49,849 nt of DNA. It comes from a virus. Location: the IMG/VR virus record IMGVR_UViG_3300023178_000072, positions 1-49,849 of that record. One strand, 5' to 3'. Below the pieces are notes generated by a model. It made no database searches. It was not told the DNA's origin and saw only the letters and a list, made by a program, of their open reading frames with translations. Numbering within the stretch: the stretch's first letter is position 1; each line of letters opens with the position of its first letter. The translations under genes and the position numbers were made by a program. Below, in pieces: positions 286-31,353 of this stretch.

Positions 286-2232
286 TTGGTAGTAACTAAT
301 AACGACGTGGCTGCGCTTAATACATTAATGCGCACGAGCTCAGGCGAAGAAGCACCTGTCCCAACGCGCAAACTTAGAAATAATATCGAAAACGTAGAAA
401 TTTTCCACAGCACACGTAAAACAGAAATTACGTTGTGCATTCTTGGTATGTGGACTATTGATATGCCACCTTACGGGTTAGCTCGCCTTATTGGTATTAC
501 TAGAGCGGCTGGTTATAAAACAAATGTTTATGATTTCAATGTTGAAACCTATAACTATATGAAAGTATCAAGTGAGCATTTAAACAAAGCTTGGGAAAAT
601 GCTAACTACTGGATGTGGGAAGGTCAGCGTTTTTACGATATTATTTTCCCAGAATACAAAGATTATTTGGATGATTATGTCGAAAGATTAATTGACGATA
701 ATCCAGATATTATCGGATTTAGTTATTACATATCTAATGCTGCAGCCACTGACTATGTTGGTAAAGCAATTAAAGAAAAGCGTCCAGATATTACAATTAT
801 TCTTGGTGGACCAGAATGTCACGGTGAAAGATTTAGCCCACCTGAATATTGTGACTTTTATTTTGTTGGAGAGTCGGAAGGTAATATCCTAGACTTTTTG
901 GAAAACTATGAAAATGAAAAACTACCAGAGCAAAAGCGTATTGGTACTCTGTTTGGCCAAAAACGAATTAACCTCGATACTCTTCCATTCCCAGATTACA
1001 CTGATTTTCCATTAGAATATTACAAATCCAAAGGTGCAGTAACAACTGAGTTTAGCCGAGGCTGTGTTGCCCGCTGTGCTTATTGTACAGAAGTTTATTT
1101 TTGGAAATTTAGAGATCGTGATGCCGAGTCAACTGTTGACGAATTAGAACATATGTACCACAAATACGGAGTGCGATGGATCCTATTTGCTGACAGTTTA
1201 ATGAATGGCAATATGAAAGAATTCAGACGCTTTGTGGAATTGCTAGCAGAAAGAAAACTAGAACATCTTAAATGGTTTGGATACGCCCGTGCCGATGGTC
1301 GCATGGACGACGATTTTTATAGACTTATGAAAGAGTCTGGCGGGCAAGGTTTTAATTATGGATTTGAAACTGGTAGTGATAAAGTTTTAAAGGGCGTAAA
1401 TAAGAAAAATACTGTTGCAGAAATTAATGCTAATATTGAATCATCATATAAACACGGTCTTGCCGTTAACGCTTGTTGGGTTATTGGTGCACCTGAGGAA
1501 GATATTGAAGCATGGGCCCATAGTCTTAATCTTGTGTGGAATTATAAACATGCCATTCTTAGTATTTCTCCTGGCATTGGTCTTGGAGACAGCCGCGGAT
1601 CACTCTATGATGACAGAGTAAAATACAATATTTCGGATCGAGCTGTAAATTGGCAAGGTAAGTGGTGGACCTTGGATATGCAAAACACCGCAATTAATCG
1701 CTTTATACGAACAAAAATGATGCATATGTGGATCCACTATTGTAATGCAAATGATAAAAACCAAGTTATAAACAATTGGTTACTTGCTGATGATATGAGT
1801 AAGCATTATACGGTCCAGTACAACTCAGATTTTAACAATAAAAATGCACCATATGAATTTGATTTTGATTATAACATTATTAAATCAGGTTTAAGTGATT
1901 TTGCTGATACATTAATGAATGAAATCTTTGCGATGCTTAGGTTGATGTGGAGAGCAAGAGGTGCGCAAGAAGTTAAAATTACGTTTAATCCCGAATTAGA
2001 TAATGTAGATTTTGAAAACGCCGTGGCTGGAACTAATATGGAATGGCATGCTGACATTGATTTCAAAATTGACTCCAACGGTGTATGGCAAGCTAATAAC
2101 AAATACAAATTTGTTGATAACGAAAAAAGACGTTGCTTAACTGGTAGAGCAAATGAAAATGGTGAATATGAATATACTGATCGCGATGAAAGCTTTGAAT
2201 ATGAATATATTGGAAATGGTAAATGGGAATGA
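286..2232 (+). CDS. B12-binding-type radical SAM protein
   Basis: The N-terminal part (about residues 50-190) resembles a cobalamin-binding-type Rossmann domain, with PPYGLARLIGITRAAGY and DIIGFSYYIS followed by IILGGPECHG. The radical SAM core follows, with the iron-sulfur motif CVARCAYC: cysteines 260, 264 and 267 in CxxxCxxC spacing. The core continues to about residue 420. The last 200 residues are not recognised and end in an acidic, tyrosine-rich tail. I chose the TTG start at 286 because GGAG lies 8 bases upstream; an ATG at 328 is the alternative. I see no canonical DxHxxG cobalamin-ligand motif, so B12 binding itself is uncertain. Proteins of this class methylate or rearrange unreactive carbons. 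Its place at the head of a methyltransferase/glycosyltransferase cluster suggests nucleotide or DNA modification, but the substrate is unknown. Confidence 0.85.
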   Translation: MVVTNNDVAALNTLMRTSSGEEAPVPTRKLRNNIENVEIFHSTRKTEITLCILGMWTIDMPPYGLARLIGITRAAGYKTNVYDFNVETYNYMKVSSEHLNKAWENANYWMWEGQRFYDIIFPEYKDYLDDYVERLIDDNPDIIGFSYYISNAAATDYVGKAIKEKRPDITIILGGPECHGERFSPPEYCDFYFVGESEGNILDFLENYENEKLPEQKRIGTLFGQKRINLDTLPFPDYTDFPLEYYKSKGAVTTEFSRGCVARCAYCTEVYFWKFRDRDAESTVDELEHMYHKYGVRWILFADSLMNGNMKEFRRFVELLAERKLEHLKWFGYARADGRMDDDFYRLMKESGGQGFNYGFETGSDKVLKGVNKKNTVAEINANIESSYKHGLAVNACWVIGAPEEDIEAWAHSLNLVWNYKHAILSISPGIGLGDSRGSLYDDRVKYNISDRAVNWQGKWWTLDMQNTAINRFIRTKMMHMWIHYCNANDKNQVINNWLLADDMSKHYTVQYNSDFNNKNAPYEFDFDYNIIKSGLSDFADTLMNEIFAMLRLMWRARGAQEVKITFNPELDNVDFENAVAGTNMEWHADIDFKIDSNGVWQANNKYKFVDNEKRRCLTGRANENGEYEYTDRDESFEYEYIGNGKWE

Positions 2233-2681
2233 TCTGGATTAGTAAATGGGACGAGCGCTTTATGAAAATGGCAGAAATGATTGCCACTTGGAGTAAAGAT
2301 CCATCTAGTAAAATTGGTGCCGTTGCAGTTAATGACGAACATCGTATATTGGCTACAGGTTATAATGGCTTTCCTCGAGGTATTGAGGATAGTGAAGAGC
2401 GCCTTTATGATCGTGATGAAAAATATCCTCGTATAGTTCATGCGGAAATGAACGTTCTTATGAATGCTCTTTATAATGGAGTTTCTCTAAAAGGTGCTAC
2501 TCTTTATGTTTGGGGTTTGCCTATTTGTCCAGATTGTACAAAAAGTGTTATTCAGTGTGGCATTAAAAGAGTAGTGTTGCCATATCCTATTGAGGTTGGC
2601 GGCAGATGGAAACAAGTTTGGGAAGAACGCTCTATCCCAATGTTTAAAGAGGCCGGAATTGAAATCGCCTACATTGACTGA
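2223..2681 (+). CDS. dCMP deaminase (cytidine/deoxycytidylate deaminase family)
   Basis: The zinc-binding deaminase signature is complete: HAE with His73 and Glu75 (catalytic proton shuttle), and PICPDC with Cys102 and Cys105. The N-terminal WDERFMKMAEMIATWSKDPSSKIGAV is typical of phage deoxycytidylate deaminases, which convert dCMP to dUMP for thymidylate synthesis. At 152 residues it is shorter than the T4 enzyme (about 193) but a normal size for the family. It overlaps the end of the radical SAM gene by 10 bases. The ATG at 2229, which overlaps the TGA, is an alternative start; I kept 2223 because GGAA at about 2212 is better spaced. In this cluster it may also tune the dCMP pool for cytosine modification. 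Confidence 0.85.
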   Translation: MGMIWISKWDERFMKMAEMIATWSKDPSSKIGAVAVNDEHRILATGYNGFPRGIEDSEERLYDRDEKYPRIVHAEMNVLMNALYNGVSLKGATLYVWGLPICPDCTKSVIQCGIKRVVLPYPIEVGGRWKQVWEERSIPMFKEAGIEIAYID

Positions 2682-3306
2682 TATTTACTTTAAGGTAAAG
2701 AAAGATGATCCAAATAGGAGGGAAAACGATTTTTATCCAACCCCTCCTTTGGCGACATACGTATTATGTAAATATGTTAAACCTCCAACGTATTTAATTG
2801 AGCCTTGTGCTGGCCGTGGTAATATTTCCGTTGAATTAGAACGTAATGGCCATAGAGTTGCCAGTTATGATTTAAATGAGTACGATAATCCTCTAACGGA
2901 AATCAAAACCGGTGTTGATGCATTAGAACTAAAAACGTCAAAGATGTTTACAGGGCTTGTAACTAATCCACCATATCACAAAAATCTTCCGCATAAATTA
3001 GCTGAAAAATTTATAGAAGAATATGATTACGTAGCCATGTTTTTGCGCCTTACATTTTTAGAGGGCAAAAAACGAAAAAAGTTGTTTACAAAATACAAAC
3101 CTTGTGATATAATATTCTTATCAGATCGAGTAAGATTTGCTGAAGGCCACATTGAACCTATTGAATTGAAAGATCAAGTAGGTGGGATGATGGCTTATAT
3201 GTGGATTGTATGGAGAAAAAATTCTGAACAAACAAACTTACACTGGGCCTCTCTTGAAGAAAATTATCCAGAATGGAGAGAACAGTATGAGAAAAATGCT
3301 AAATAG
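2674..3306 (+). CDS. NPPY-motif SAM-dependent methyltransferase (adenine-N6 type)
   Basis: About 210 residues. The order DFYPTPP, then EPCAGRGNIS (SAM-binding motif I, with the FxGxG-like AGRG), then TNPPYHKN (catalytic motif IV, NPPY) is that of amino-methyltransferases acting on adenine N6 or cytosine N4 in DNA. The frame stays open further upstream inside the deaminase gene. I placed the start at the TTG overlapping that gene's TGA, because residues before it do not resemble the family and no in-frame ATG lies between it and the conserved DFYPTPP. The target-recognition region is short, so specificity cannot be predicted. It could protect phage DNA from restriction. A non-DNA substrate is also possible. 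Confidence 0.7.
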   Translation: MTDIYFKVKKDDPNRRENDFYPTPPLATYVLCKYVKPPTYLIEPCAGRGNISVELERNGHRVASYDLNEYDNPLTEIKTGVDALELKTSKMFTGLVTNPPYHKNLPHKLAEKFIEEYDYVAMFLRLTFLEGKKRKKLFTKYKPCDIIFLSDRVRFAEGHIEPIELKDQVGGMMAYMWIVWRKNSEQTNLHWASLEENYPEWREQYEKNAK

Positions 3307-3338: not shown

Positions 3339-4184
3339 ATGGAACATCTAATTATTCCTACGCTTGGCCGATTGGACCGCCAGCGTACGTATAACAATTT
3401 ACCCCAAAAATATAAAGATATCACTCAATTCGTGGTTCAAGATCACGAATATGATGCTATGAATGAACGTTATCCTGGCAAGGTTTTGCGTCTGCCAAAA
3501 GAAATTAAAAAGCTATCTCCAACACGCCAATGGATTTGGGATGAGTTTTATGGAACTCGCCATATGGTTTTAGACGATGACTTTGATCATTTTAAAAATA
3601 AAACACCAGCCGAGTTTATGCCTGAGGTTAAAGTTGAAACCAAATGGATCTCAACTAATATGACTGACGAAGAATTTGACGACGCCTTTGATACTTTCAA
3701 TCGCTGGTGTGATGAGGAAGGTATTTACCACGGTGGATTTTCTACATCATGGACTGTACCTGACGCCCGCTGGTGGCCGCATCAAGATAATGTTCGTATT
3801 GCAACGAACTGTTATTTTGATTCTAAAAATCTTCCACGTAATATTATCTGGGATCGTCTTGAAACATCCCAAGACTTTGACGCCAACCTACAGCTTTTAA
3901 CTCAAGGTTTTCCAAACCGTGTTAATACTAAGTACCGTGTAACTGTCGGTGGTACTAATATTAAAGGTGGTTGCTCAACATATCGTACCACTGAAACAAT
4001 GACACGAGTTCACAAACAACTTGCCGAGCTATATCCAGACTTTGTATCTTTAAAAGTTAAAAAGCCAAAGTCGGGTCCATTGCAAGGACAGGAATATATT
4101 GCTTGTCATATTCAATGGCGTAAGGCTTACGAAGAATCAAAACGTAAGCGCGAGCAAGTTACTGTGGAGGATTTCTTCGCATGA
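3339..4184 (+). CDS. GT-A-type glycosyltransferase-like protein (DNA-modification type suspected)
   Basis: 281 residues. The N-terminus HLIIPTLGRLDRQRTYNNLP resembles the opening strand and sugar-nucleotide loop of GT-A glycosyltransferases. It is followed at residues 76-83 by MVLDDDFD, a DxD-like metal/nucleotide-sugar motif at the position expected for that fold. The pattern recalls the TET/JBP-associated glycosyltransferase families described in phages with modified cytosine, though I cannot run a profile search. It has a good ribosome site (GAGGAG before the ATG) and its TGA overlaps the ATG of the epimerase. Its neighbours (epimerase, nucleotide-sugar dehydrogenase, C5-methyltransferase) fit transfer of a sugar to modified DNA. 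It could instead act on another acceptor. Confidence 0.6.
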   Translation: MEHLIIPTLGRLDRQRTYNNLPQKYKDITQFVVQDHEYDAMNERYPGKVLRLPKEIKKLSPTRQWIWDEFYGTRHMVLDDDFDHFKNKTPAEFMPEVKVETKWISTNMTDEEFDDAFDTFNRWCDEEGIYHGGFSTSWTVPDARWWPHQDNVRIATNCYFDSKNLPRNIIWDRLETSQDFDANLQLLTQGFPNRVNTKYRVTVGGTNIKGGCSTYRTTETMTRVHKQLAELYPDFVSLKVKKPKSGPLQGQEYIACHIQWRKAYEESKRKREQVTVEDFFA

Positions 4185-5125
4185 AAGTAATGGTGACGGG
4201 TGCTGCTGGTTTTATTGGCTTTCACGTAGTCAATAAGCTAGTAGACGAAGGTTATGATGTTTGTGGTATTGATAGTTATAATGCTTATTATGACCCAAAC
4301 CTCAAAGTTGAAAGAAATAAACGTTTACCTATCGAGGTTGACGTTGTAGATTTAAAAGATAAAGAAGAACTTAAAATCCATATGGTGCGTGAAAAGCCAG
4401 ATGCTATTATTCATTTGGCTGCCTATGCTGGTGTCCGCTCGTCATTAGAGTTTCCACATGTTTATATTGATAATAACATCTATGGTACTCAAAACTTAAT
4501 TGACGTTGCTGAAGAACTTGGGATTGAAAATGCTCTTTATGCTTCAACATCGAGCGTAATGTCTGGCCAACCAATTCCATTTACTGAAACCAATCCTGGT
4601 CCGGCGAAACATCCATACGCTATGACTAAGATTGCTAATGAATCACAATTTAATTATTCTAAAATTGCAAAAACAATTGGCTTGAGGTTCTTTACCGTAT
4701 ATGGACCTTGGGGTCGTCCTGATATGGCTTTATTTACATTTACTGACAAAATTATAAAAGGTGAACCAATTGATGTTTATAACCATGGAAACATGACTCG
4801 TGATTTTACTTACGTTGACGATATTGTTAGCGGAATTATGATTCTTTTGAAAGAATGCATAAATAATGATGTACAAATCTTAAATGATGTATATAATATT
4901 GGATATGGTGATAGAGTTCCTCTTATCCACTTTATTGAACAGATTGAGAATAATTTAGGCAGAGAAGCAAAGAAAAATTATATGGAAATGCATCCTGCCG
5001 ATGCTGTAGATACTTGGTCTGACACATCTAAATTGCGAGCACTTGGATATAAGCCAACAACACCTATTGAAGATGGTGTTTATGAATTTATCCAGTGGTA
5101 TAAACATTATTATGGAGTTAATTGA
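4181..5125 (+). CDS. NAD-dependent epimerase, UDP-glucuronate 4-epimerase-like
   Basis: A complete 314-residue extended short-chain dehydrogenase. The NAD-binding GAAGFIGFH starts at residue 7, and HLAAYAGVRSS comes from the family's second conserved loop. The catalytic YxxxK is Tyr146 and Lys150 (YAMTK), preceded by the Ser/Thr-rich STSSV that supplies the catalytic hydroxyl. The segment LRFFTVYGPWGRPDMA is characteristic of UDP-glucuronate 4-epimerases, which interconvert UDP-glucuronate and UDP-galacturonate. It overlaps both neighbours, so translation is probably coupled. With the dehydrogenase next to it, it could make UDP-galacturonate from host UDP-glucose. A different 4-epimerase or a UDP-glucuronate decarboxylase activity cannot be excluded. 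Confidence 0.85.
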   Translation: MKVMVTGAAGFIGFHVVNKLVDEGYDVCGIDSYNAYYDPNLKVERNKRLPIEVDVVDLKDKEELKIHMVREKPDAIIHLAAYAGVRSSLEFPHVYIDNNIYGTQNLIDVAEELGIENALYASTSSVMSGQPIPFTETNPGPAKHPYAMTKIANESQFNYSKIAKTIGLRFFTVYGPWGRPDMALFTFTDKIIKGEPIDVYNHGNMTRDFTYVDDIVSGIMILLKECINNDVQILNDVYNIGYGDRVPLIHFIEQIENNLGREAKKNYMEMHPADAVDTWSDTSKLRALGYKPTTPIEDGVYEFIQWYKHYYGVN

Positions 5126-5967
5126 TGGAATTTAGAAAAGCAGACATTGCTATCGTAGGACACGGTTTTGTTGGAAAAGCTGTTGATTACGTATTTAATA
5201 ACGATGTAGCATACAAAACAATCATAGATCCAAAACTAGGAAACAGTGTAAAAGATCTCGGCAATAATACTATTGCTGATGTTGGATCTTATGACGCTAT
5301 ATTTGTTTGTGTGCCCACACCTATGGGCGAAGATGGCGAAATTAATTCTGACATTTTGGTTGAAGTTGTTAATGAAGTTAAACAATTTACTGACGGTTTA
5401 ATTATTATCAAGTCAACTGTAACGCCGGAAATTATTAGTAGTCTTGCGGGGCCTGGAGTAGTTTATAATCCAGAGTTTTTAAGGGAAGCAACAGCAGTTG
5501 CAGATATTCTCACACCTTCGATGCATATTTTTGGTGGGAGTCGAGAAGATACTGATCTAGCAGCTGCACTATTTGAAGAATATAGTTTATGCAAAGCTGC
5601 GCCGGTTTATCACATGACAATGGCTGACGCATCATTTGTTAAATATGGAATCAATACTTTCCTTGCATCAAAAGTTCTTTGGTTCAATCAATTTTATGAT
5701 GTAGTTAAAAATAATGGTGGAAATTATGGACAAATCGCAAGAGCTATTAGCACTGACCCTCGCATTGGTTATAGTCATATTATGGTACCTGGCCCTGACG
5801 GGAAACGTGGATTTGGTGGAGCTTGTTTTCCAAAAGATACTGCCGCCTTCCTAAAGTTTGCAGGCGAGTTTAGTGTATTGGAAGAAGTTATTAATAGAAA
5901 CAATGAATACCGTAAAGTTTACGAAAAAGATGATCGTGAAAAAGAACAAAATATTCATTATGGTTAA
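5125..5967 (+). CDS. short UDP-glucose 6-dehydrogenase-like protein
   Basis: 280 residues. The Rossmann motif GHGFVGKAV starts at residue 12, VCVPTP at residues 61-66, and STVTP and YNPEFLREATAVAD follow. The central domain ends in GFGGACFPKD with the catalytic-type Cys234. These are the signatures of UDP-glucose/GDP-mannose dehydrogenases, which oxidise the C6 hydroxyl to a carboxylate. Family members usually run to about 390-450 residues. This one stops soon after the cysteine motif and lacks the C-terminal UDP-binding domain. I chose the ATG at 5125, which overlaps the previous TGA and has GGAG about 7 bases upstream; a TTG at 5122 is the alternative. It probably feeds the epimerase, if active without the third domain. 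Confidence 0.8.
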   Translation: MEFRKADIAIVGHGFVGKAVDYVFNNDVAYKTIIDPKLGNSVKDLGNNTIADVGSYDAIFVCVPTPMGEDGEINSDILVEVVNEVKQFTDGLIIIKSTVTPEIISSLAGPGVVYNPEFLREATAVADILTPSMHIFGGSREDTDLAAALFEEYSLCKAAPVYHMTMADASFVKYGINTFLASKVLWFNQFYDVVKNNGGNYGQIARAISTDPRIGYSHIMVPGPDGKRGFGGACFPKDTAAFLKFAGEFSVLEEVINRNNEYRKVYEKDDREKEQNIHYG

Positions 5968-5978
5968 TTGGAGTTAGT

Positions 5979-7163
5979 ATGTATTCACACGCAAGTATCG
6001 TACCTCTAATTGGTGGTGAAACAATTGGCGCAACACGTGCGCACGGCCAAGAGCCAGATTATTTCCTATCATACAAAGCATTTGAGGCTAACGATAGTCA
6101 TATTAGAAATTATTATCCAAATGTACCATACTACGTATTAGATGAGGGTGGAAAGGCACCACATAAGGTTGATGTAATCCACACGGTATGTCCATGCGCG
6201 GGTCTGAGTACACTCTCTGCGGGGTTTGGTGACCACAATGAGAACAACAAATGGATGATTGAAACTGCTAACTACGTATTAGGAGAGTTAAAGCCAAAAG
6301 TTTTCTGGGGCGAAAATGCTCCAGGATTCGCGGGTAAGATTGGTAAAAATGTTAGAGAGCAATTAAGAAAAATTGGTAAAGATAATGGCTATACAATGTC
6401 AGTTTACCGAACACGAACTCTATTGCATGGAATGCCTCAAGTAAGAGAGCGTTCATTTTATTTCTTTTGGCATGACACCAAAGTTCCATTAATGGAATAT
6501 TATAACAGGCCATTTACACCCATCGAGGATTTGATTACTGGAGTTAAATCAAACTTTCAAACTGAAGTTATTAATAATAAAAAGCCAACTGACAACCCTT
6601 ATTACAAATATATCCTTGAAGAACTAGAAGGTGGTATTACTCATAAAGAGTTTGCAGCTATGGTAGATCCAGAAACTGTACGCAACTCGACTGTTTTAAC
6701 TTATATTGAACGTCGTAAAGGTTATCTTGAAGTTGCTGATTGGATGGAAAAGCATGGATATGATCGTGAGGTAGAAAAATGTAAATATCGCCACGAAAAA
6801 CTCAAAGCGGGTGGTTCAATTATGAGACGAACAACTATTGTTCCTCGTAATTATATTGGAGCATTTGTTGGTCATTATCCATCTTGTCTTGCGCATCCTA
6901 TTGAAGATCGTTATATTAATTATCGCGAAGCTATGTCTATTATGGGATTGCCCGAGGACTTTGAGTTATTAGATCCAAAAAAGAATACAAACCATATTTG
7001 CCAAAATGTTCCAGTTCAAACTGCGACCGATATGGCTACTGAAGTTGTGGCTTATCTTAATGGTGAAAGAAAAATGGTTGACACGGATTATATTTTGCAG
7101 TATAATCATCAACAAAGGGCGGAATACGTCGAAAAGCAAAATACGTTGGAGGCGTTTATTTAA
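5979..7163 (+). CDS. cytosine-C5 DNA methyltransferase
   Basis: 394 residues with the ordered motifs of C5-methyltransferases. FEANDSHIRNYYPN (motif II-like) begins near residue 35. CPCAGLS carries the nucleophile Cys73 (motif IV). ENAPGF at 112-117 is motif VI and QVRERSF at 154-160 is motif VIII. After a variable target-recognition region come a GLPEDF segment and QNVPVQTATDMA (motifs IX/X). The SAM-binding motif I is unusual: IGGETIGA in place of the common FAGxGG. The enzyme methylates cytosine C5 through a covalent intermediate. Next to glycosyltransferases, its product could be the substrate for further oxidation and glycosylation. The start is the ATG preceded by GGAG. A role in simple restriction avoidance is the main alternative. 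Confidence 0.85.
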   Translation: MYSHASIVPLIGGETIGATRAHGQEPDYFLSYKAFEANDSHIRNYYPNVPYYVLDEGGKAPHKVDVIHTVCPCAGLSTLSAGFGDHNENNKWMIETANYVLGELKPKVFWGENAPGFAGKIGKNVREQLRKIGKDNGYTMSVYRTRTLLHGMPQVRERSFYFFWHDTKVPLMEYYNRPFTPIEDLITGVKSNFQTEVINNKKPTDNPYYKYILEELEGGITHKEFAAMVDPETVRNSTVLTYIERRKGYLEVADWMEKHGYDREVEKCKYRHEKLKAGGSIMRRTTIVPRNYIGAFVGHYPSCLAHPIEDRYINYREAMSIMGLPEDFELLDPKKNTNHICQNVPVQTATDMATEVVAYLNGERKMVDTDYILQYNHQQRAEYVEKQNTLEAFI

Positions 7164-8110
7164 TGCAGCAAAATAATGTATCTATTGAAGAATTAAGAAA
7201 ACATTCTATATTTGTAGGCTCACCAATGTATGGTGGTCAATGTGCTGGATCATATTCTAAATCTTGTACTGATTTGGCTATGATTTGTACTGCTAACGGA
7301 ATTAGTCTAAGATTCTATTATCTCTTTAATGAAAGTCTTGTTCAAAGAGCTCGTAACTATGTAGTTGATGAGTTTTTGAGATCTGACTGTACTCATCTAA
7401 TGTTTATTGACTCTGATATTGGTTTTAATGCTCGTGATGTTCTATCTTTGCTCGCATTACAAATTACTGATCCAGAAAAATACAATATCGTTACTGGCCC
7501 TTATCCTAAGAAAACTATTGCTTGGGAAAAAATTCAAAAAGCTTCGAAGCTAGGATTAGCCGACCAAAATCCATTTGAATTGGAAAAGTACACCGGTGAC
7601 TATGTATTTAATCCAGTACAAAAAGGGGGCAGCTTCCAACTGGGTGAGCCACTAGAAATTAGTGAAGGCGGCACAGGATTTATGCTTATTCCACGAGAAA
7701 CATTTACTAAATATGCTGCAGCATATCCTGAATTGAGCTATCTACCAGATCATGCTCGTACAGAGCAGTTTGATGGCTCAAGAGAAATTACAGCTTATTT
7801 TGATTGTATGATCGATCCAAATACTAAACGTTATCTGTCAGAGGATTACTTCTTTTGTCGTAAAGCTGCAGCTATTGGTTTACGTACTTGGATGTGTCCT
7901 TGGATGCAATTACATCATATTGGTACATATATCTTTAAAGGCAACATGGGATCTATCGGTCAGCTAGGTGTTTCAGCAACCGCCGATTCCACAAGTAATG
8001 CTAAACATTATAAAAAGCAAGCAGCACAAGCAGCACCTCAACAACCAGTAAAACAAGCCAATAGGGCTGAAAGGCGCCGCGCTGAAAAACTAGCAAAGAA
8101 AAATGGTTGA
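7163..8110 (+). CDS. glycosyltransferase-like protein (GT-A fold, DSD motif)
   Basis: 315 residues. It has SIFVGSPMYGG near the N-terminus, a helix with RARNYVVDEF, then HLMFIDSDIGF with the DxD-type motif at residues 83-85. A later SEDYFFCRKAAAIGL resembles the acidic catalytic-base region of GT-A enzymes. The last 40 residues are alanine-, glutamine- and lysine-rich with RAERRRAEKLAKK, a basic tail that could bind DNA or membrane phosphate. Its ATG overlaps the stop of the C5-methyltransferase, so the two are probably coupled. It may be the second sugar transferase of the modification pathway. The acceptor and sugar are not visible in the sequence. Confidence 0.6.
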   Translation: MQQNNVSIEELRKHSIFVGSPMYGGQCAGSYSKSCTDLAMICTANGISLRFYYLFNESLVQRARNYVVDEFLRSDCTHLMFIDSDIGFNARDVLSLLALQITDPEKYNIVTGPYPKKTIAWEKIQKASKLGLADQNPFELEKYTGDYVFNPVQKGGSFQLGEPLEISEGGTGFMLIPRETFTKYAAAYPELSYLPDHARTEQFDGSREITAYFDCMIDPNTKRYLSEDYFFCRKAAAIGLRTWMCPWMQLHHIGTYIFKGNMGSIGQLGVSATADSTSNAKHYKKQAAQAAPQQPVKQANRAERRRAEKLAKKNG

Positions 8111-8135
8111 CAGTATACCTAAATCGTGATAGAAT
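8107..8135 (+). promoter_or_regulatory. sigma70-like promoter before the clamp gene
   Basis: TTGACA at 8107-8112 and TAGAAT at 8130-8135 are separated by exactly 17 bases, close to the bacterial consensus. The -35 box contains the TGA stop of the glycosyltransferase gene. Transcription should begin near 8142, some 26 bases before the clamp ATG. It probably drives early expression by unmodified host RNA polymerase. Confidence 0.75.
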
Positions 8136-8167
8136 TAAAATGTAATGAAACAAGGAGTTCCTATATT

Positions 8168-8830
8168 ATGCAATTTTCTGAACAAGCTCTTACAGTTCTA
8201 AAGAGCTTCTCTACTATTAACAAATCCATTTTAATGAAACCGGGTAACGTTCTCAAAACAATTACTCCTGAGAAAACGCTCGTTGCTCAAGCTACAATCC
8301 CAGACCAAATTCCTTCGGGTGCATGTATCTATGATTTGTCAAGATTTTTATCAATTTTGTCACTTCATAACCAACCAGACGTCGAGTTTCACGATAAATA
8401 CTTCGTGATCAGTGAAGGCAAGCGACGCACAAAGTATGCCTTTGCAGATGTTTCCATGATACACACCGCGCCTGATAAGGAAATTACAATTCCTGCAGCA
8501 GACGTTGTTGTCAACGTCACATGGGAAGATTTGCAGTCGGTGCTTAAAGCCGCCGGCGTTCTTCAGTTTACTGAAGTTGCATTTGTTGGTCAAGAAGGAA
8601 AAGTCTATCTCAAGGCTGTTGATACTAGTTCAGCCAATGCTGATGACTATGGGATTGAGATTGGCGAAACTGCTGACGAGTTTACGATTGTTATTAAAAC
8701 AGACAATCTTAAACTTCTTCCGCAGAATTATCAGGTTACTCTTTGCGCAAAGGGTATCTCTGAATTTAAAGGAGAAAGTGCAACATATTTTGTTGCAATT
8801 GATACAAAGTCGACTTATCAGAAAGGATAA
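8168..8830 (+). CDS. 45: DNA polymerase sliding clamp (T4 gp45-like)
   Basis: 220 residues starting MQFSEQALTVLKSFSTIN, with an interior like that of T4 gp45 and its marine relatives (SILMKPGNVLKTI, IYDLSRFLSIL, a C-terminal TYFVAID segment). The clamp is a trimeric ring that tethers DNA polymerase to the template and, in T4, also activates late transcription. I set the start at ATG 8168, with AAGGAG about 10 bases upstream, rather than at the GTG at 8126, which would put the promoter inside the coding region. Its own promoter and the terminator at 9132 make a short unit with the next gene. Confidence 0.88.
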   Translation: MQFSEQALTVLKSFSTINKSILMKPGNVLKTITPEKTLVAQATIPDQIPSGACIYDLSRFLSILSLHNQPDVEFHDKYFVISEGKRRTKYAFADVSMIHTAPDKEITIPAADVVVNVTWEDLQSVLKAAGVLQFTEVAFVGQEGKVYLKAVDTSSANADDYGIEIGETADEFTIVIKTDNLKLLPQNYQVTLCAKGISEFKGESATYFVAIDTKSTYQKG

Positions 8831-29670: not shown

Positions 29671-31353
29671 ATGGCTAAAAAAGAATGGATCGTAACTCTT
29701 CATAGAAAAGAAGATTTGCAAGATTTCTATACTGATATGGAAACGCCTGGCGGAAGTTTGTATATTCCAGATCGTTCCGTAAGTGTTAGGCATAGAAGAA
29801 ACATAAGTAGAAATACTCACTATATGTTAGATTTTGATGAAGCACTCATGATATTAGATGATCCTAGAGTTGCCAGTGTAGAGTTAGCAGAAATTCTAGA
29901 TTTATTTACTAAACCGTCCGGTTGGACCTCGTCTGGAGAAGTTTTTTCAAAAGACTTTTTTACTGATGTAGGTGATATAAACTGGGGACTATTAAGACAT
30001 CAATTAGCTGCCAACATTAGTGGTTGGGGTGATGATGCTACTTCAAACGTGTCACAAGATTTCAGTGTTACTACCGGTGGTAAAAATGTTGACGTTGTTA
30101 TTGTAGACGGGCACATTGATCCTGCCCATCCAGAATTTGCAGTTAATTCTGATGGTACCGGTGGAACAAGAGTTGTTCAATATAATTGGTTGCAACATAC
30201 AAACGAAGTAAGTGGCGGGGCTAATGGAACTTATGTCTATACTCCATACGTAGATCCTAGCTATCCTGACACCGATGGTAATGGTATAGCAGATAGAACT
30301 GAAGATAATAATCATGGATGCCATGTTGCAGGAACGGTAGCAGGTAATACTCAAGGATGGGCTAGAGAAGCAAACATTTATAACATAAGCCCATATTCAA
30401 CTAATCAAAATAGTATTTCTTCATCTTTAATGTGGGACTATATTAGAGCTTGGCATAATAGTAAACCAATTAATTCAGCAACCGGGAGAAGAAATCCAAC
30501 TGTCACAAATAATAGTTATGGAACAACGATCACACTTAACAATGGCGATTTTGGCCCAGTTACAAGAGTAATTTATAGAGGCGTAGATTATAATCCGGGA
30601 AGAAGTCTTACATTAGCAGAATTACAAGCGCGCGGATTTTATGCAACTGATACATCCCCAACCGTACCTTATTGGTCTAGTGCAAGGGCAGCAGATATTC
30701 AAGATGCTATAGATGATGGTATTATAATTGTAGCTTCAGCAGGAAACGACTCTTTTAAAACCGTTAGATCTACTAACCAAGATTATAACAACTTTTTTTA
30801 TGCAACTTATCTCGGATTTGGTGCAACTTGGTATCTTAACAGGGGAAATCAGTCAGGATCAGCCGTAGAAAACGTGATTAACGTTGGGGCAACGGATAAC
30901 GGACAAGCAGAGTTTAAAGCAACTTTTTCTAATTGCGGAGATCTTGTTGACATATTTGCAGCAGGAGTCGCAATACAATCTAGTCTTCATACAAGTACTG
31001 GTGCCACTGCAGATCCTAGAAATGGGAGTTATTACTTAGGAAAATATCAAGGAACTAGTATGTCTGGCCCACAAGTTTGCGGCGTATTAGCTTGTCTATT
31101 AGAACACTATCCAGGTACTACTCAAGCAGAAGCTCAAGCTTGGTTAACACAATATGCAAACGTTAATGAAATGGGAGACAGCGGAACTGATGATCCTATG
31201 GACAGGACAAGTTTGCAAGGCGCGCCAAATTTATTTTTGCGCTGGTTTAACCAAAGATCAGACACTGGAACAGCATACCCAAGAACAGCTTTTAAAAATA
31301 GACCAACATCAGGACATGTTTATCCTCGTACTGCCATTCGTAGACGTGGATAA
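29671..31353 (+). CDS. subtilisin-like serine protease (S8) in the tail cluster
   Basis: 560 residues. The catalytic triad is complete: Asp146 in VVIVDGHID, His215 in NHGCHVAGT and Ser463 in GTSMSGPQV, with the oxyanion Asn359 in ASAGND. There is no signal peptide, so it is not exported by the usual route. The N-terminal 100 residues (YTDMETPGGSLYIP, RHRRNISRNTHYML) may be a propeptide or virion anchor. Flanked by structural genes and ahead of a late promoter, it is probably virion-associated. It could cut host surface proteins during adsorption, or mature a tail component. Confidence 0.88.
   Translation: MAKKEWIVTLHRKEDLQDFYTDMETPGGSLYIPDRSVSVRHRRNISRNTHYMLDFDEALMILDDPRVASVELAEILDLFTKPSGWTSSGEVFSKDFFTDVGDINWGLLRHQLAANISGWGDDATSNVSQDFSVTTGGKNVDVVIVDGHIDPAHPEFAVNSDGTGGTRVVQYNWLQHTNEVSGGANGTYVYTPYVDPSYPDTDGNGIADRTEDNNHGCHVAGTVAGNTQGWAREANIYNISPYSTNQNSISSSLMWDYIRAWHNSKPINSATGRRNPTVTNNSYGTTITLNNGDFGPVTRVIYRGVDYNPGRSLTLAELQARGFYATDTSPTVPYWSSARAADIQDAIDDGIIIVASAGNDSFKTVRSTNQDYNNFFYATYLGFGATWYLNRGNQSGSAVENVINVGATDNGQAEFKATFSNCGDLVDIFAAGVAIQSSLHTSTGATADPRNGSYYLGKYQGTSMSGPQVCGVLACLLEHYPGTTQAEAQAWLTQYANVNEMGDSGTDDPMDRTSLQGAPNLFLRWFNQRSDTGTAYPRTAFKNRPTSGHVYPRTAIRRRG

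Follow-up and report, generated by a model that had tools for sequence, protein, structure and literature searches.

Organization of the operon and its relatives

The DNA analyzed here, referred to as the window, is the 49,849-nt fragment IMGVR_UViG_3300023178_000072 of a marine T4-like phage, and near its left edge lies a tight operon of five open reading frames (ORFs; plus strand, 3339-8110) followed by the gene for the gp45 sliding clamp. In 5' to 3' order the operon encodes a glycosyltransferase of the TET-associated DNA glycosyltransferase (TAGT) family, a short-chain dehydrogenase/reductase (SDR) that resembles UDP-glucuronate 4-epimerases, a short UDP-glucose 6-dehydrogenase (UGDH), a C5-cytosine methyltransferase and a GT-A-like protein, with neighboring ORFs overlapping or separated by 1-12 bases (Table 1). 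A first-pass annotation had described these genes, together with the radical SAM protein, dCMP deaminase and NPPY methyltransferase encoded upstream, as a possible cytosine glycosylation cluster with a dedicated route to a sugar acid. The ORFs and profile matches bear out the operon and its position, all three upstream genes match their profiles, and the assignment to DNA glycosylation stands, since the first gene belongs to the TET-associated family PF20691 and not to a cell-surface family. The same gene order is found again in independent contigs and is therefore not a product of chance. The presence of the genes, their families and active-site residues, their recurrent synteny and the C-terminal tails described below can all be read from the sequence itself.

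Table 1. Features of the operon and of the genes flanking it.
Feature	Position	Strand	Evidence
TAGT-family DNA glycosyltransferase, 281 aa	3339-4184	+	PF20691 1.2e-16; phrog_842 4.6e-37
TAGT C-terminal clamp-binding-like tail, VTVEDFFA	4158-4181	+	resembles gp43 polymerase tail of relatives
UDP-glucuronate 4-epimerase-like SDR, 314 aa	4181-5125	+	PF01370 6e-49
Short UDP-glucose 6-dehydrogenase, 280 aa, ATG at 5125	5122-5967	+	PF00984 3.5e-15; PF03721 1.9e-13
C5-cytosine DNA methyltransferase, 394 aa	5979-7163	+	PF00145 1.7e-16
C5 methyltransferase C-terminal clamp-binding-like tail, NTLEAFI	7140-7160	+	21/30 distinct relatives with strict form
GT-A-fold protein, phrog_1574	7163-8110	+	phrog_1574 4e-58
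gp45 sliding clamp	8126-8830	+	PF09116 5e-17; phrog_223 1e-69
dCMP deaminase	2223-2681	+	PF00383 4e-22; phrog_174 2.6e-48
B12-binding radical SAM protein	286-2232	+	PF02310/PF04055
NPPY DNA methyltransferase; frame 2590-3306, likely start TTG 2674	2674-3306	+	phrog_799 2e-41

A T4-type dCMP hydroxymethylase adjoins the operon

The left edge of the window excludes gp42, which is recovered on an overlapping contig, L001; the two share 99.9% identity over 13,477 bp, and L001 reaches 4,151 bp further left. A 230-aa protein encoded there (L001:3229-3921) matches the T4 dCMP hydroxymethylase 1b49 at 9.8e-68; its gene lies two small genes upstream of the radical SAM gene, 0.2-0.9 kb beyond the window edge. 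Its identity to T4-type dCMP hydroxymethylases is 45-53%, compared with about 25% for the other group of thymidylate-synthase-like matches, which includes Thanatos. The catalytic cysteine and the aspartate specific for dCMP, which we take to be position 179 in T4, are invariant across 16 aligned sequences. With a T4-type gp42 of this kind adjoining the operon, 5-hydroxymethylcytosine (hmC) would be made before replication, so that it should be incorporated as the DNA is copied, as happens in T4. RB69-type 5-hydroxycytosine is disfavored, as this gp42 belongs to the T4 type.

The first-pass annotation had noted that the window lacks an enzyme to oxidize the base, and had offered either a gap or a different chemistry as the explanation. 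The former holds, with the gene lying just beyond the left edge; the latter is not supported, as the base-modifying enzyme is, by homology, the classical T4 one, and new oxidation chemistry appears unneeded.

The donor enzymes are predicted to supply a uronic acid

The SDR aligns end to end with 6zl6 (9e-45), which we take to be a UDP-glucuronate 4-epimerase, and with 5u4q (1e-78), whose deposited name is dTDP-glucose 4,6-dehydratase; the RPDMA motif is common to all three. The arginine of the RPDM motif presumably reads the carboxylate, and R(P/K)DM is found in 59 of the 63 longer epimerase-like relatives from the UGDH set. With its SDR fold, YxxxK and uronate-type RPDM motif, the window protein thus has the features expected of a UDP-glucuronate 4-epimerase. 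In the UGDH alignment the catalytic Thr, Glu, Lys, Asn, Cys and Asp columns are invariant. The dedicated uronic-acid route of the first-pass annotation is upheld by this pair, whose simplest predicted product is UDP-galacturonate, or UDP-glucuronate if epimerization is incomplete.

The glycosyltransferase belongs to a swappable sugar cassette

The window TAGT is homologous to the T2/T6-type enzyme that adjoins gp42, and its best phrog match, phrog_842, is a beta-glucosyl-HMC-alpha-glucosyltransferase; this homology makes it the best candidate for the enzyme that glycosylates hmC. In around 50 IMG/VR relatives we find, with variations, the order gp42, dCMP deaminase, a sugar cassette, C5 methyltransferase, phrog_1574, gp45 and gp44. 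The deaminase is a constant member of the gp42 module and adjoins gp42 in nearly all relatives, while the cassette differs. It consists of TAGT, epimerase and UGDH in the window and in L003; of an AGT, a recognized T4 DNA alpha-glucosyltransferase, in L035 (PF11440, 8e-71), with further PF11440 matches of 3e-30 to 1e-53 in the same slot of relatives; of a GalE-like epimerase, an unknown protein (c38) and a UDP-galactopyranose mutase in L040, a content that suggests galactofuranose; and of a GT4 enzyme in L047. When placed on the methyltransferase tree, the TAGT cassette requires at least two changes. Turning to the galactofuranose type: This last combination, at L040:7032-9996 and also in L050, L051 and L054, pairs the GalE-like epimerase with a mutase matching PF03275 (1.5e-55) and an unknown protein of phrog_14998, and is likely a cassette for galactofuranosyl-hmC.

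UGDH and epimerase accompany the TAGT in every untruncated locus of its clade (at least 63%). A wider scan with a UGDH profile yielded at least 592 confirmed relatives, and many of these phages, marine relatives among them, carry the order gp42, dCMP deaminase, AGT, epimerase, UGDH, C5 methyltransferase and uvsX. Among 77 further UGDH loci, a replication or modification gene is present in 75 and an epimerase-like gene in 65, and 37 carry at least one of gp42, AGT, TAGT and C5 methyltransferase. In L132, L155 and L174 another TAGT stands directly before the epimerase and UGDH (PF20691 down to 1.5e-49). The idea that UGDH is paired with TAGT alone proved wrong, as the scan found it with AGT and with neither. 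For reference, T4 has the order gp42-b-gt-uvsX, the last two being separated by one homing endonuclease gene, and T6-like phages have gp42-TAGT-uvsX. In some gp42 phages (L138:5992-8009 and its relatives L140, L141, L147, L149 and L151), two unknown proteins of about 327 and 341 aa lie between the dCMP deaminase and the UGDH-epimerase pair, and are candidates for new transferase families.

The C5 methyltransferase retains the motifs PC(A/S)GLS, ENAP, QxRxR and QNVP in 24 relatives, with its catalytic Cys, Glu and Arg invariant. L022 and L023 keep gp42, TAGT, epimerase and UGDH without this enzyme, which is absent from both loci and from the entire 73 kb contig of L023; it would therefore not be required upstream of glycosylation.

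DNA-modifying enzymes carry polymerase-like C-terminal tails

The C-terminal tails of the TAGT and the C5 methyltransferase resemble the ends of gp43 DNA polymerases, STLDEFFG in L007 and SLDFLFG in T4, the comparison being with gp43 of relatives and T4 and not with the window's own. Among 952 distinct C-termini, a strict LExFF-type tail is found in 13 of 14 gp43 proteins, all nine TAGTs and 21 of 30 C5 methyltransferases, as well as in one of seven AGTs and in the GT4 from the swapped cassette. The 585 unassigned proteins yield a single match, a Dam-like DNA methylase in the phage C48C1, and around 300 other assigned proteins yield none; composition alone gives a chance rate of 0.0007 per protein. 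In later-fetched loci, outside the set from which the pattern was defined, the UGDH-linked AGT-type enzymes end in LEEFF or LDEFF in 18 of 18 cases. The T4 alpha-glucosyltransferase and beta-glucosyltransferase and the T6-like TAGT lack a polymerase-type tail.

The tails of T4 gp43, gp55 and gp33 all bind gp45, and one can stand in for another (PMC2988020). The T4 alpha-glucosyltransferase also binds gp45, although that contact is not the main determinant of how much alpha-glucosylation occurs in T4 (PMC13216743). Because a gp43-like tail is almost absent from the other proteins of these loci, the tailed DNA-modifying enzymes probably ride the sliding clamp. Two further loci are of note here. 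In C48C1 (L065:7172-10918) the epimerase and UGDH lie by uvsX and the Dam-like methylase ends in STLDAFFG, and in L137 (2327-3574) a 415-aa protein without a Pfam match, ending in TTLEDFFA, stands beside C5 methyltransferase, epimerase and UGDH genes and is probably, to judge from its tail and neighbors, another clamp-tailed DNA glycosyltransferase.

Proposed mechanism and alternatives

We propose that the module carries out T4-type hyperglycosylation of hmC with its own supply of uronic acid, a reading that we consider probable. In this scheme gp42 would convert dCMP to hydroxymethyl-dCMP, which would be polymerized into DNA; the short UGDH would oxidize host UDP-glucose to UDP-glucuronate, the SDR would epimerize this to UDP-galacturonate, and the TAGT, docked on gp45 through its LExFF tail, would move the uronosyl group onto hmC behind the replication fork. 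A similar docking is proposed for the C5 methyltransferase, which probably methylates cytosines that have escaped hydroxymethylation. The most likely product is hmC bearing a glucuronosyl or galacturonosyl group. We infer the donor, acceptor, sugar and linkage, together with the contact with the clamp and the methyltransferase's function, from the families, residues, synteny and tails set out above. A broader picture, which we hold more tentatively and with slightly less than even confidence, is of acidic DNA in marine T4-like phages, in which a large share of cytosines would carry glucuronosyl- or galacturonosyl-hydroxymethyl groups, placed by glycosyltransferases riding the clamp at the fork, and in which the cassette (for glucose, uronic acid or galactofuranose) would be swapped between constant modules.

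Several observations weigh against the uronosyl-hmC reading. A search for a T4 gp56-type dCTPase (PF08761) that matched T4 itself gave no match in 13 window-related records, mostly fragments, and for this reason the replacement of C by hmC may be partial; a dATP/dGTP-pyrophosphohydrolase-like gene (dGTP_diPhyd_N) precedes gp42 and might substitute for the dCTPase. It is puzzling that a phage with hmC should keep a clamp-tailed C5 methyltransferase; the plainest guess at its role is methylation of the cytosines left after partial replacement. The predicted structure of the TAGT is of low confidence (pLDDT 58), and the tail pattern was drawn up after the first set of loci had been viewed. The UGDH, at 280 aa compared with 393-478 aa in its PDB relatives, has no detectable C-terminal UDP-binding domain, PF00984 and PF03721 being its sole matches. 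The UGDH-epimerase pair adjoins uvsX in C48C1 (complete, 156 kb) and in a 177 kb contig, where neither gp42 nor any other thymidylate-synthase-family protein was detected, which implies that a uronate supply can serve something besides hmC. Finally, more distant TAGTs adjoin gp42 without UGDH (a 48% group, L110-L112, and L115 at 38%), and a TAGT therefore need not use uronate.

These last two observations, and the carriage of UGDH by many other phages, favor an alternative in which hmC is glycosylated with host UDP-glucose, as in T2 and T6, and the UGDH and epimerase serve some other purpose, for instance sugars of the capsule or virion, or deplete the host's UDP-glucose. We judge this unlikely, while regarding it as the most serious of the alternatives: the clade of the window never separates the pair from the DNA glycosyltransferase, the pair lies within the replication block between gp42 and uvsX or gp42 and gp45, far from structural genes, and it is found again with AGT-type DNA glycosyltransferases.

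Less probable still is a pentose donor, in which the SDR would decarboxylate UDP-glucuronate, the usual precursor of UDP-xylose, to UDP-xylose or UDP-arabinose and so yield pentosyl-hmC, comparable to RB69 or Thanatos. Some T4-like phages are known to carry pentosyl cytosines (PMC6024577, PMC12838424), but the end-to-end match of the SDR to UDP-glucuronate 4-epimerases and their common RPDM motif argue for epimerization, and the enzyme that makes the base belongs with those for hmC in T4, with little likeness to that of Thanatos.

The route raised by the first-pass annotation, in which the C5 methyltransferase makes 5-methylcytosine, the radical SAM protein or a TET-type dioxygenase encoded elsewhere oxidizes it and the TAGT glycosylates the product, now appears very improbable. 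Phages combining TET and TAGT enzymes are established, and the window holds both a C5 methyltransferase and a TET-associated glycosyltransferase. Against this stand the adjacent gp42, the loci that dispense with the methyltransferase and the absence of the radical SAM gene from L003; a search for TET/JBP enzymes (PF12851), run without a positive control and on incomplete records, gave no match in the window or in 35 related records. A role in decorating the surface of the cell or the virion is hardly credible for a cluster with DNA-glycosyltransferase families, a setting among replication genes and clamp tails of the polymerase type, even though UGDH and UDP-uronate epimerases in bacteria typically serve the synthesis of capsule and lipopolysaccharide.

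Neighboring genes outside the conserved core

The first-pass annotation had counted two GT-A-type transferases in the operon. The TAGT is one; for 7163-8110 Pfam gives a sub-threshold glycosyltransferase match alone (PF13506, 0.018), and an AlphaFold model (pLDDT 70) matches GT-A folds, with 77 PDB chains at E<=0.001 and TM scores of just 0.3-0.45. We rejected this protein as a member of the core unit, as phrog_1574 is absent from TAGT+UGDH contigs of 136 kb and 126 kb and lies near gp45 in alphaproteobacterial phages without a clear gp42. Its gene precedes that of the clamp, either immediately or at a distance of a few genes, in Cr30, phiM12, DLP6 and RHph_I1_18 (L066-L069), T4-like phages of Caulobacter, Sinorhizobium, Rhizobium and Stenotrophomonas; no clear gp42 was found in these four, DLP6 giving a weak match (7.6e-5).

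The radical SAM and NPPY methyltransferase genes lie beside the module and outside its conserved core. The radical SAM protein, which is related to C- and P-methyltransferases such as PhpK and the C-methylases of ribosomally synthesized and post-translationally modified peptides, matched nothing at 1e-10 in a set of 50,697 phage records, and its gene is missing from L003, the nearest other relative. We therefore rejected the proposal that it activates the base; its gene is lineage-specific cargo, possibly for tailoring a sugar or a base. The NPPY methyltransferase, probably of the N6-adenine type, has distant homologs in numerous phages, but L003 and most other relatives of the window do without it. 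Downstream of gp45 the window continues in T4-like fashion with gp44, a clamp-loader small-subunit-like gene and then structural genes, amid which lies an apparent subtilisin-like serine protease gene (29671-31353).

Comparison with known systems

If the proposal is correct, a cytosine carrying a negatively charged sugar acid joins the known phage bases, and the number of UGDH relatives indicates that its genes are widespread. Swapping of the sugar while hydroxymethylase, deaminase and methyltransferase stay constant would offer a possible escape from glycan-specific defenses. The common tail provides a sequence mark for picking out DNA-modifying enzymes of T4-like phages, and renders replication-coupled modification directly testable. 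In the literature searched, whose coverage is far from complete, we found no report of hexuronosyl-cytosine or of galacturonic acid on phage DNA.

The TET/TAGT phage systems share the TAGT family with the window but differ in the route to the base, which is here predicted to be pre-replicative hydroxymethylation by gp42, with no TET match in a search lacking a positive control. RB69 and Thanatos are likewise T4-like and combine phage sugar-nucleotide genes with a base enzyme of the thymidylate synthase family (PMC6024577, PMC12838424, PMC13390438); they carry glycosylated 5-hydroxycytosine or a pentose on cytosine, whereas here the base enzyme is of the T4 hydroxymethyl type and the sugar genes point to a hexuronic acid. 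Bacillus phage SP-15 carries glucuronolactone on dihydroxypentyluracil, and its UGDH has been proposed to supply glucuronate for DNA (PMC5977210). That enzyme is 29% identical to the window UGDH. SP-15 thus offers a precedent for phage DNA that bears glucuronate, though the base there is a uracil derivative with a phosphodiester link, in contrast to the hmC with a direct glycosidic bond predicted here. The parallel in T4, T2 and T6 is the glucosylation of hmC by gp42 with an alpha-glucosyltransferase, beta-glucosyltransferase or TAGT, where the hydroxymethylase and the glycosyltransferase families are the same and the placement between gp42 and uvsX is similar; to this the window adds a putative supply of UDP-glucuronate or UDP-galacturonate, a C5 methyltransferase and a polymerase-type tail on the transferase.

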